Origin: Aureobasidium sp. EXF-3400
Taxonomy: Eukaryota > Ascomycota > Dothideomycetes > Dothideales > Saccotheciaceae
Reading direction: 5' to 3'
Assembly (NCBI GenBank): GCA_024195585.1
Contig: SWBL01000071.1
Coordinates: forward strand, 1 to 64,000
DNA length: 64,000 bases
The first letter of the stretch is position 1, and each line of letters begins with the position of its first letter. Of this stretch, positions 38,573 through 63,140 are shown piece by piece. The translations under genes were made by a program, and so were the position numbers. The notes below the pieces were generated by a model, which ran no database searches, was not told the origin of the DNA, and was given only the letters and a program-made list of their open reading frames with translations.

Positions 38573-39617
38573 CTTGGAAACTTTGTCACGGTCTGCAAGA
38601 TCAAGGTGATTGTGCATGACATGCCAAGCCCCTCATGACATCTTAAGCTCCGAATATATTGGCTGCTCTGACAGCCTGCTCACTGTCTAACGTTCATGTC
38701 GATGATTATTAAAATGGATGGTCACGAGATACGTACGATGATCTGTCTTGACCAGTGCTTCTAATGTCGAACAAATCAAAAAGTGTATCGATCTGACGGC
38801 GAAGGAGATCGAAGTTTTCAAAGTTGGCTGCATCTTTCTTCGAATTCTATATTTATCCTCACCATGACGCTCTAACCATAAGATGAGTTGATCCAAATGC
38901 CCAGGGCGTACATATCCGCCACCAGATAGACAAAGCAGTTAATCGAGCCCTAAGGTAGCCCACGAAAGATGATTCCAGATGTGAAGCATATGAGAGTGGC
39001 ATAACCCTGACCATGCTTACGTAAGCTGCCATAGTATAAGTAGGCGCCCTCTCCCGCACCCTCTTCACCAACCATCCAAGGTTCGTACCACCAGATCTGA
39101 TACATGCTGTCTTCCTATACTAACTTTGGATAGTGCACGGGCATAACGCGGTCAGAACATCTCAAACGCCTACTTCAATATGAAGCAACTACTGACATGT
39201 GCTACAGTATCAGTGAGGATTCGTCCGAGATCGTGTTTTTGCTAGTTGAAAACTATCAACTGACTGCTCTTGATGGTCTCACGATCATCAAGGAATTTTT
39301 GGAAAACAAAACAATATTCTTTGTTATCTCTTTTTTTTTCATTGATGTTCTGGCTGCTGGCTGGACATTGAAGAAGAATCGAGTTTGTTATTGATGGGAA
39401 CGTGCAATAGTAGTGATACTGAACGGAGATGAAGGAAACATGACACATTTTGAGACGCTGCTTGTAGACGCTCTGATAGAAGTGAGCATAGTTCTGTTTA
39501 GCATGTATACAGTGATCTGTTGTTGCTGTCTCGGTGCGCACTTTCCCTGTCGTGTTCGAGTCAGGTGGAGTGACGTTGCTGTATGCGGTTGTCATTTTGA
39601 ATAGTTTATACTCTCTA
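38573..39617. other. Intergenic
   Basis: About 1 kb between SAM37 and the methyltransferase gene, both minus strand. No gene recognised. Confidence 0.5.
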
Positions 39618-42917: not shown

Positions 42918-43242
42918 AACAATTGCAGAGGGCAACAATGAAGAAGCAATTTATCTCTTCTACCAAGGCTATCAAGATTAGCTTTGCTAGCGACCAAGTC
43001 TTTCCACTTTCTGATGCCCTTGCAGCTCTCGGATGTTGATGATTCAATGTTTGTCATGTATGAAAAGGCACAGTGATTCAGTGAATGGTTGAGGTGTCAA
43101 TAGGAAGAAAACAGAATTGATATTAGGTATGCAGTGAAGTCAGGGTTGGTCAGAAGTGACGGGGCAGCCCCACCAAGGGTCCGAGAGCCATCTGGAGCTT
43201 CGCGCGCATGCGACAAGCGACTTGTTTACATCAACCACCAAC
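42918..43242. other. Intergenic
   Basis: PRP17 3' flank and NMT1 promoter. The NMT1 frame stays open upstream to 43156, but that part looks like leader. Confidence 0.5.
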
Positions 43243-45040
43243 ATGCCCCAGGAAGAGTCCAAACCCATAGACGCTCCTGTTAACCAGGAAGCCGTCAACG
43301 ATGCTGTCCAAAACCTCAACCTGTCCGATGAACAGCCCAAAGAAGGAGCCTCGCTGAACGAGGCCGCAGAGTCGAGCGGAGAAGACAACAACGACGACTC
43401 GATACAAGCTCCCGCCAAAAAGTCAAAGAAGAAGAAGATCAAGGAGGCCGTCTCGAATCTCACCTCATCCTCCAAATCTCCCGCTGCTCCTACTTCGGCC
43501 GAAGACCCGCTACCCGCCTCGACCATCGACAAACTGTCCGACTCGCAAATCAATGCTCTGGTACAAAGCAATCCTGCCCTGGCCCAGGCCATGCTCAAGG
43601 GCGGTACATCTCTCGATGCCCGCAGCATGCGTGAACTTCTCAAGTCTGTCAGCGCCGCCGACCTGATGACGGGCATGAGCTCGGGAAAGAATGCAAAAGA
43701 CATGGCCAACTACAAGTTCTGGTCCACCCAGCCCGTCCCTCGCTTTGACGAGAAGGCTGCTTCTGCCGAGAAGTCGGTTGTCGAGGGCCCCATCAAGGAA
43801 GTCGATCCTACCAAGGTCTCTACAAAGCCATCTCCTCTGGTCGCCGGTTTTGAGTGGTCTGAAATTGATCTGCTGGATGAGGCCGAGCTGAAGGAGGTTC
43901 AAGAGCTGCTCTGCAACCACTACGTTGAAGATGACGAGGCCATGTTCCGCTTCAACTACCTCAACGAGACTCTCAACTGGGCTCTCAAGGCCCCTGGCTG
44001 GCGCAAGTCATGGCACGTTGGTGTACGTGCTACCAAATCACGCAAGCTGGTCGCTTTCATCTCCGGTGTCCCTGTGCGACTCAATGTTCGCGATCGTCTC
44101 GTCAACACAGCAGAGATCAACTTCCTCTGTGTTCACAAGAAGCTTCGCAGCAAGCGTCTTGCTCCTGTTCTTATCATGGAAATCACTCGTCGCTGCAACC
44201 TTGAAGGTATCTACCAGGCCATCTACACCGCTGGTGTTGTCCTGCCCAAGCCTGTGGCCAGCTGTCGCTACTTCCACCGTGCTCTTGACTGGGAAAAGCT
44301 CTACAACGTCGGCTTCAGCCCGCTTCCTCATGGCAGCACTAAGATGCGCCAGATCTCGAAGTACCGTCTGCCAGAGCGTACTGTAACCCCCGGCCTCCGC
44401 TTGATGCGCGCAGAAGATGCCGATCAAGTTACAGACCTGCTTCACCGCTACATGAAGCGTGTCAAGATGGCCCAAGAATTCAACAAAGAAGAAGTCCTGC
44501 ATTGGTTCGTTGACAAAGAGTCCGACCCAAAGAGCAACAAGCGTGTCGTCTGGACATATGTCGTCGAAGATGCTAACAAGAAGATTACCGACTTCTTCAG
44601 CTTTTACAGCCTGGAAAGCTCTGTGATTCATAACGCTAGTCACCAGAGCACAATCCGCGCTGCATACCTCTTCTACTACGCCACCGAAAGTGCCTTTGAA
44701 AACCAAAACGACGAGGATGATGTCCTCAAGGCCCGTCTCAACTTGCTGGTCAAGGACGCCTTGATTCTCGCCAAACAGGTAAGCTAAGCATTTCCTACCC
44801 CCTATCTTCCTAGAACAGGATCACTGACACATCCATCTAAAGGCCAGATTCGACGTCTTCAACGCCCTCACACTCCTCGATAACCCTCTTTTCCTTTCCG
44901 ATCAGAAGTTCGGCCCCGGAGATGGTCAACTCCACTATTATCTCTTCAACTACCGTACCGCTGACTTGCCTTCTGGTGTCGACGCCAAGAACCAAGTCGA
45001 TGCTAGACAGCGCGGCGGTGTGGGTGTTGTCATGCTGTAG
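43243..45040 (+). CDS. NMT1: Glycylpeptide N-tetradecanoyltransferase (Nmt1)
   Basis: Two exons, 43243-44778 and 44843-45040, give 577 aa. The start chosen is [16 protein letters not shown]. The frame extends 29 codons further upstream, without conservation that I can recognise. After an acidic/Lys-rich N terminus ([12 protein letters not shown]), the NMT core has [64 protein letters not shown] and PLPHGSTKM. The second exon adds [16 protein letters not shown] and the conserved end GVGVVML, whose terminal carboxylate serves as the catalytic base in this family. Known reaction: myristate from myristoyl-CoA to N-terminal glycine. The G-alpha in this window (MGNC start) is a likely substrate. 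Confidence 0.96.
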
Positions 45041-62581: not shown

Positions 62582-63000
62582 TGTTGATACCTAATGTATA
62601 TATAGTTGTGAATTTGAGCGGAGCCAGGTTGGTTTTCTTCTATTCGTGTTTCCAGGCTTGATTTCAAATTCGTCTCCAGTAAAATCACTTGAAGATGTTT
62701 GTAAAGGTATAGGGTGCCCGATGTGGAAGGGTCGATGCATGGTCAAAGATCTGAAAAGATGTGAATTCGTTGTGGCTATCTATCAATATGTCTAAAACTT
62801 TCACCAAGAAGAACAGCTTGGATATCACCGCAGTGTCTCGACCTGCTGTGTTTTGATCGATGCAAATATATCAGTCTCGCCGTCAAAACTGGAAGGCGCA
62901 TTTCGTCGAATTGAGGTCGTTCTGTCGAAACAGGCGAGCGCCGGACTATATATTGATATTATCAATCAGATGTTCCAGCTGATCAAGACAGCGTTCGTCA
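62582..63000. other. Intergenic
   Basis: 3' flank of the PAF-acetylhydrolase-like gene and upstream flank of the tRNA. No gene seen. Confidence 0.5.
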
Positions 63001-63127
63001 AGCTGAGTGGCGCAGCGGAAGGTTCGTAACATATTGTTCCACTTAACAATCGTCAACATTCACTAACTCATAACAGCGCGCCGGGCTCATAACCCGGAGG
63101 ACCTTGGATCGAAACCAAGCTTAGCTA
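63001..63127 (+). tRNA. Initiator tRNA-Met(CAT) interrupted by a 55-nt insertion in the D arm
   Basis: Removing 63022-63076 leaves 72 nt, the normal size of eukaryotic initiator tRNA without CCA. The acceptor stem AGCTGAG/CTTAGCT pairs at all 7 positions (one G.U). The anticodon arm is CCGGG-CTCATAA-CCCGG, with the three G:C pairs of initiators. The T arm is CTTGG-ATCGAAA-CCAAG, with the initiator-type loop starting with A. The first pair A1:U72 is also initiator-specific. The D stem GCGC/GCGC is complete only after removal. A-box (63008-63018) and B-box (63106-63116) are intact, and a T6 terminator follows. The insertion site is about nucleotide 22/23, not the standard 37/38. Confidence 0.92.
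63022..63076 (+). other. Intron-like insertion in the initiator tRNA gene
   Basis: 55 nt that begin GTTCGTAAC, contain CACTAAC at 63061-63067 (branch A at 63066) and end CATAACAG. These are the features of the pre-mRNA introns of this same window, which are 50-65 nt long; GTTCGT also serves as a donor in HOG1 and in the PAF-acetylhydrolase-like gene. The boundary can slide by one base (63021-63075) because of a shared G. No bulge-helix-bulge shape expected for tRNA endonuclease was seen by eye. Confidence 0.8.
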
Positions 63128-63134
63128 TCATATC

Positions 63135-63140
63135 TTTTTT
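63135..63140 (+). terminator. RNA polymerase III terminator
   Basis: A run of six T starting 8 nt after the end of the tRNA-Met gene, the standard Pol III stop signal. It supports the interrupted gene being a transcribed unit. Confidence 0.85.

Follow-up and report, generated by a model that had tools for sequence, protein, structure and literature searches.

Can a nuclear tRNA gene carry an intron of the kind that the spliceosome removes from messenger RNA precursors? The removal of nuclear tRNA introns is conventionally ascribed to a protein endonuclease and a ligase, apart from the spliceosome. The question is raised by an initiator tRNA-Met gene with an insert in its D arm, located near the end of the window, which is the whole 64,000-nucleotide stretch of Aureobasidium DNA analyzed here (contig C71). 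Our analysis suggests that this insert is very probably a conserved spliceosomal (U2-type) intron in the D arm of a nuclear initiator tRNA-Met gene. The evidence consists of the gene structure, the same insertion site in 8 of 10 initiator loci, the preservation of both the splice signals and the tRNA body amid strongly diverged sequence, and the absence of the intron from one pair of loci.

Structure of the interrupted initiator tRNA-Met gene

A first-pass annotation of this DNA had described an initiator tRNA-Met gene whose D stem is broken by 55 nt, with a GTTCGT start, a branch-like A at 63066, an AG end and a T6 run. All of these elements are found at the corresponding coordinates, and the insert occupies 63022-63076 between D-stem positions 22 and 23, a placement that can shift by one G. 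The intron of the window gene is thus located at 22/23 and not at the canonical tRNA-intron site, 37/38. The features of the locus are as follows.

62947..62954 (+): TATATATT, TATA-type element at -54
63001-63127 (+): interrupted initiator tRNA-Met gene (contig C71, the window)
63001..63021 (+): exon 1, with the acceptor 5' strand, A box, D loop and first base of the 3' D strand
63022..63076 (+): 55-nt spliceosomal-type intron, GTTCGTAACAT...ACTAAC...CAG, with GT...AG ends
63022..63029 (+): 5' splice-site region GTTCGTAA, invariant in 8/8 interrupted copies
63063..63067 (+): branch-point-like motif CTAAC, putative branch A at 63066, conserved in position
63074..63076 (+): 3' splice site CAG, present in 8/8 interrupted copies
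63077..63127 (+): exon 2, with the rest of the D stem, the anticodon (CAT) arm, the T arm and the acceptor 3' strand
63106..63116 (+): GGATCGAAACC, which we take to be the B box from established knowledge
63135..63140 (+): T6 run, presumably the Pol III terminator

The intron begins with GTTCGTAAC, contains ACTAAC and closes with CAG. The exons match the intact initiator gene on C18 at 100% over C18 positions 20-72 and 6-21, with the first five bases also the same, and the acceptor stem includes one G:U pair (5:68). The CAT anticodon, A1:U72, G29-31:C39-41, A54 and A60 can all be read from the sequence; we assume that A1:U72, the three G:C pairs of the anticodon stem, A54 and A60 are initiator marks. 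The intact genes on C18 and C233 are called tRNA-Met by ARAGORN, the former as tRNA-Met(CAT). The interrupted window gene was reported neither by ARAGORN in its bacterial setting nor by Rfam at the gathering score. With introns of up to 200 nt allowed, ARAGORN called the two intact initiator genes and none of the eight interrupted ones; if the insert is a spliceosomal intron, tRNA gene finders can therefore miss real initiator genes.

Initiator loci across the genome

The genome search for other initiator copies that the first-pass annotation had suggested was carried out in an assembly of 53.4 Mb on 717 contigs. It reveals 10 initiator loci, of which 8 are interrupted at the identical site by 52-56 nt and 2 are uninterrupted, a total that is a lower bound because the searches are heuristic and the assembly is possibly incomplete.

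Interrupted loci (intron length): C4 (53 nt), C5 (52), C14 (53), C17 (52), C52 (55), C71 (55), C79 (56), C128 (56)
Intact loci: C18, C233

A pattern for the 5' half of the gene occurs at 11 exact places, 10 of which are the initiator loci; the remaining exact match, on C27, is not a tRNA. This pattern also gave 35 places with one mismatch, 6 of which were inspected. The 3'-half pattern occurs at 11 places, comprising 9 of the 10 initiator loci and two that are not tRNAs, and it misses the copy on C17, whose sequence is broken by a further insert. The CATAACCC places on C210 and C248 have no surrounding tRNA. A DNA similarity search with the intact C18 gene recovered these 10 loci again, with every one of its 10 candidates scored. 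Exon 1 shows no difference across the 10 loci, a uniformity to be read with the fact that 14 of its 21 bases are the pattern used for the 5'-half search, while the similarity search gave the same loci independently.

A run of at least five T begins 3-8 nt past the gene in all 10 loci, and a strict TATA match lies upstream in 7 of them (none in C17, C52 and C233). The D-arm insert is absent from all four tRNA-Trp genes found among places with a near-identical D arm (GGTAG for GGAAG; 6 of 14 such places inspected). On prokaryotic contigs, 45 stretches matched a degenerate pattern, none of them with CATAA within the next 40 bases, and viral contigs gave no match to either of two patterns for the interrupted-gene arrangement.

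Homeologous pairs and two gene sets

Judged by flanking DNA and ORFs, the ten loci form five homeologous pairs: C14/C71, C5/C52, C79/C128, C4/C17 and C18/C233. For C79/C128, the matches that define the pair are weaker (52% over 158 residues and 59% over 74 residues). C128 additionally resembles C5 over about 330 bases around the gene (75%). Intron presence or absence is concordant in 5/5 pairs, both members being interrupted in four and both intact in C18/C233. The simplest interpretation of this distribution is that the intron arose before the two parents diverged.

The assembly apparently contains two diverged sets of Aureobasidium genes (C71 with C14, C5 with C52, C18 with C233), which would come from either a hybrid diploid or a mixed culture and which we used as a comparison between two diverged parents. 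The N-myristoyltransferase of the window (43156-44784) has 98% identity to an Aureobasidium melanogenum protein. Another copy, located on C14, shares 92% identity with that of the window, and one in-frame TGA occurs within the alignment. Among 25 of 120 listed proteins compared, this C14 copy is nearest to the environmental sequence P0004 (92%), with A. melanogenum P0001 at 87%. Stable, highly heterozygous diploid hybrids of A. melanogenum are described in passages of PMC9535773.

Conservation of intron signals and tRNA body

Alignment of the eight introns leaves three invariant elements: GTTCGTAA, the ACT-AC of the branch motif, and CAG. All eight interrupted copies start with GT and end with AG, and the branch motif, CTAAC in seven and CTGAC in one, is followed by exactly 9 nt of intron in every copy; in shuffled introns, the probability of a CTRAC ending at exactly that distance is 0.003-0.006 per copy. 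By a crude similarity measure that ignores gap columns, the middles of homeologous introns are no more alike than shuffled sequences in three pairs (0.66, 0.76 and 0.70 vs 0.72-0.73) and more alike in C79/C128 (0.89 vs 0.77). Since these middles align mostly at shuffle level, the fixed splice signals stand out. Some non-homeologous middles lie well above shuffles (C52/C128, 0.93 vs 0.76; C4/C71, 0.91 vs 0.73), so the middles are not wholly independent, and this high similarity may come from a common A/C-rich composition or from conversion. Upstream of the gene, the adjoining 50 nt score no higher than shuffles in three of the four homeologous interrupted pairs, with C4/C17 at 0.78 vs 0.71.

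The 72-nt tRNA itself is invariant over the 10 loci except for T-stem pair 51:63 and the extra 7 nt of C17; the relaxed constraint on the tRNA body that marks tRNA pseudogenes is not seen. Pair 51:63 is T:A in C4, C5, C17, C18, C71 and C128 and C:G in C14, C52, C79 and C233. The compensated C:G is common to three interrupted copies and one intact copy, which points to use, or at least to conversion with used copies.

As a separate observation, in four pairs one member has C:G at 51:63 and its partner T:A, and both members of C4/C17 have T:A, as if initiator copies, intron-bearing or not, were homogenized within each parent.

Minimum-energy folding of the eight pre-tRNAs gives the T and anticodon stems every time (with a larger loop in C17) and a complete acceptor stem in seven; that of C17 has 4 pairs. 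The mean pairing probability of the intron in the folded pre-tRNAs is 0.18-0.51. Avoidance of TTTT in the introns is not statistically significant (0/8 contain it vs 0.69 expected, P = 0.48).

Comparison with mRNA introns

The insert had also been likened to pre-mRNA introns in its length; set against putative mRNA introns of this genome, the resemblance is mixed, with agreement in length and motif plan and a difference in start sequence and base composition. Putative mRNA introns were collected by ORF-joining in 279 kb of non-redundant DNA of the same genome, where 22 of 163 candidates pass a filter for GTNNGT and a branch motif; all of those that pass are unvalidated predictions. Among them, 14 have lengths of 50-64 nt, compared with 52-56 nt for the tRNA introns, while the agreement in GTNNGT and branch motif arises by construction, because both were selection criteria. 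The GTTCGT start is rare, being found in 0/22 filtered putative mRNA introns and in 2/163 unfiltered candidates. The G content of intron middles is 0-7% in the tRNA introns vs 10-40% in the 22 putative mRNA introns (Mann-Whitney P = 4e-5). With G so much lower in their middles, the tRNA introns are not average mRNA introns, and low G may prevent the intron from pairing with the tRNA arms.

Counting 5' splice-site hexamers solely from the spacing of the motifs gave 1323 vs a control mean of 1431, with no enrichment. The start motif GGTTCGTAAYAT has 11 genome matches, namely seven of the eight interrupted initiator loci (C17 differs) and places on C51, C105, C111 and C179, around which no tRNA is visible; this motif alone is not specific, since its backward control gives 19 matches.

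Inserts in a U4 snRNA gene

The window carries a second noncoding gene with inserts of this type.

39074-39324 (+): U4 snRNA gene with two GT-AG introns (window)
39081..39133 (+): U4 intron 1, AAG|GTTCGTACC...TACTAAC...TAG
39151..39207 (+): U4 intron 2, GTCAGA...CTGAC...CTACAG

Read across 39074-39324, the gene comprises ATCCAAG, a 53-nt insert, TGCACGGGCATAACGCG, a 57-nt insert and TATCAGTGAGGATTCG. The Rfam U4 match in the window covers 39193-39324 at 69 bits, and four other U4 loci score 82-98 bits. On C234 and C245, the middle piece follows the 7-nt start and the third piece comes directly after, and the spacing on C70 agrees; these three copies therefore lack both inserts. No C14 counterpart of the window gene appeared in the genome searches for U4. 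The U4 gene shows that inserts with the sequence features of introns occur in a second noncoding gene of the same genome. The two U6 matches over the cut-off (each covering model positions 1-105 in 100-102 nt) and the two U3 matches over the cut-off (each covering 1-274 in 216-220 nt) leave no room for an intron.

Intron 1 of U4 starts with AAG|GTTCGTA, the same as the tRNA introns. The GTTCGTA start is common to all eight tRNA introns and this U4 intron, and is seen in 0/22 putative mRNA introns.

Relation to known introns

The U6 snRNA genes of fission yeast and others contain spliceosomal introns. In the basidiomycete Rhodosporidium hasegawae, snRNA genes reportedly carry pre-mRNA-type introns, which would be comparable with the window U4 gene as spliceosomal introns in spliceosomal RNA genes, although their hosts are not tRNAs. 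The insert in the initiator gene resembles the intron of fungal U3 snoRNA in being a short GT-AG intron with a branch motif in a small structured noncoding RNA gene, and passages of PMC5832005 state for U3 that paralogs within one species may differ in intron presence, as they do here. Unlike the introns of U3 and U6, it is hosted by a nuclear tRNA.

Location in a nuclear tRNA gene is a property shared with canonical eukaryotic tRNA introns. These lie at 37/38 and are removed by endonuclease, whereas the inserts described here lie at 22/23, measure 52-56 nt, and combine GT-AG ends with a branch motif. ARAGORN predicted 10 introns in the loci of this genome that were examined; seven of them are 10-17 nt long and the others 3, 38 and 52 nt.

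The D-arm location is shared with introns of Cyanidioschyzon, nucleomorphs and Crenarchaeota, and 22/23 is among the archaeal sites according to portions of PMC4090602 and PMC3978253. The same portions assign the noncanonical introns of those algae and archaea to an endonuclease acting on BHB or related motifs, or to a mechanism given as unknown, and the GT-branch-AG signature, which sets our inserts apart, is not described for them there. Short D- and T-arm insertions of eukaryotes are regarded mostly as pseudogenes in part of PMC4090602, with nucleomorphs and Cyanidioschyzon as exceptions. The string "spliceosom" is absent from the main text of that review and from the tRNAscan-SE 2.0 paper (PMC8450103), a portion of which treats noncanonical introns in archaea. 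Among the matches listed in a search of open-access literature by titles and abstract beginnings, no title concerns spliceosomal introns in tRNA genes, which does not establish absence from print.

Proposed explanation and alternatives

If the insert is a spliceosomal intron, Pol III would transcribe the gene, directed by its A box, B box and TATA element and stopping at the T run, and a normal D loop could not form while the 52-56 nt insert is present. U1 and U6 would recognize AAG|GTTCGT, U2 would recognize CTAAC or CTGAC, and the insert would be released as a lariat. The joined exons would yield a 72-nt tRNA identical to the product of the intact genes before CCA addition and modification. 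We infer that folding and end maturation would follow splicing, and that U1 would be recruited by an uncapped transcript with a 21-nt first exon. Small noncoding transcripts can be spliced, as indicated by the U6 introns mentioned above. Introns in U3 point the same way (PMC5832005, in part). If this explanation is true, an uncapped Pol III pre-tRNA whose first exon measures 21 nt can be a substrate of the spliceosome.

The main alternative offered by the first-pass annotation, a recent insertion that killed one gene copy, is contradicted by the interruption of 8 of 10 loci with conserved signals. The interrupted copies might instead all be dead, a broken gene having been duplicated while only the two intact genes supply initiator tRNA. 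Given that two intact genes exist, the interrupted ones could in principle be unused. C17 carries its further insert of 7 nt in the anticodon loop, and a portion of the review PMC4090602 considers eukaryotic tRNA genes with short insertions in the D or T arm to be probable pseudogenes. Gene conversion from intact copies could also hold the exons alike, so that the copies could be kept similar by conversion rather than use. Against this, 8 of the 10 loci, forming four homeologous pairs, retain the tRNA body (C17 with its extra 7 nt) despite strongly diverged intron middles, conversion with intact copies cannot account for the invariant splice signals, and T-stem pair 51:63 is altered on both sides in three interrupted copies. 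The decay of dead copies would hardly leave such conservation, which favors a spliceosomal intron and makes a set of dead genes improbable.

Removal of the insert by the tRNA splicing endonuclease and ligase at a noncanonical site, as in Cyanidioschyzon and nucleomorphs, appears quite improbable, since that pathway makes no use of GT-AG ends or of a branch motif set at a constant distance, and the fungal enzyme measures from the tRNA body to 37/38. A scan for bulge-helix-bulge structures found no excess over shuffles in 8/8 introns, but it had little power, because seven canonical-type introns of this genome, taken as a positive control, were also not outstanding (best P 0.052). The genome does have tRNA_int_endo genes (4 matches, apparently two pairs judging from their scores and ORF lengths), and noncanonical introns are reported in the D arm, among other places, for Cyanidioschyzon and nucleomorphs and at 22/23 for archaea (PMC4090602 and PMC3978253, each in part). 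It is hardly credible that the conserved parts have been retained for TFIIIC binding or as a chromatin element rather than for tRNA production: the A box, B box, T runs (10/10) and upstream TATA (7/10) are retained, but such an element needs no whole cloverleaf, no compensated T-stem pair, and no GT, branch motif or AG in the insert.

Supply of initiator tRNA and the C17 copy

Spliceosomal splicing, as first proposed for this gene, is strongly favored by the eight interrupted copies, whereas the accompanying idea that translation initiation depends on splicing is weakened by the intact genes on C18 and C233, owing to which splicing is not the sole possible source of initiator tRNA. If the inserts are spliceosomal introns, they are conserved in four of five initiator locus pairs, and the coupling of splicing and initiation is directly testable. 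We consider it conceivable, though rather doubtful, that most initiator tRNA is made through the spliceosome, such that splicing capacity would set its supply and couple pre-mRNA splicing to initiation, and that the C17 copy may need both the spliceosome, for the D arm, and the tRNA endonuclease, at 37/38.

C17, 78507-78637: initiator copy (L034) with the D-arm insert and a 7-nt insert

The 7-nt insert of this copy, CACAGTA, follows anticodon-loop position 37. A G located three bases ahead of the insert's end could form a pair with C32, presumably as in canonical tRNA introns.
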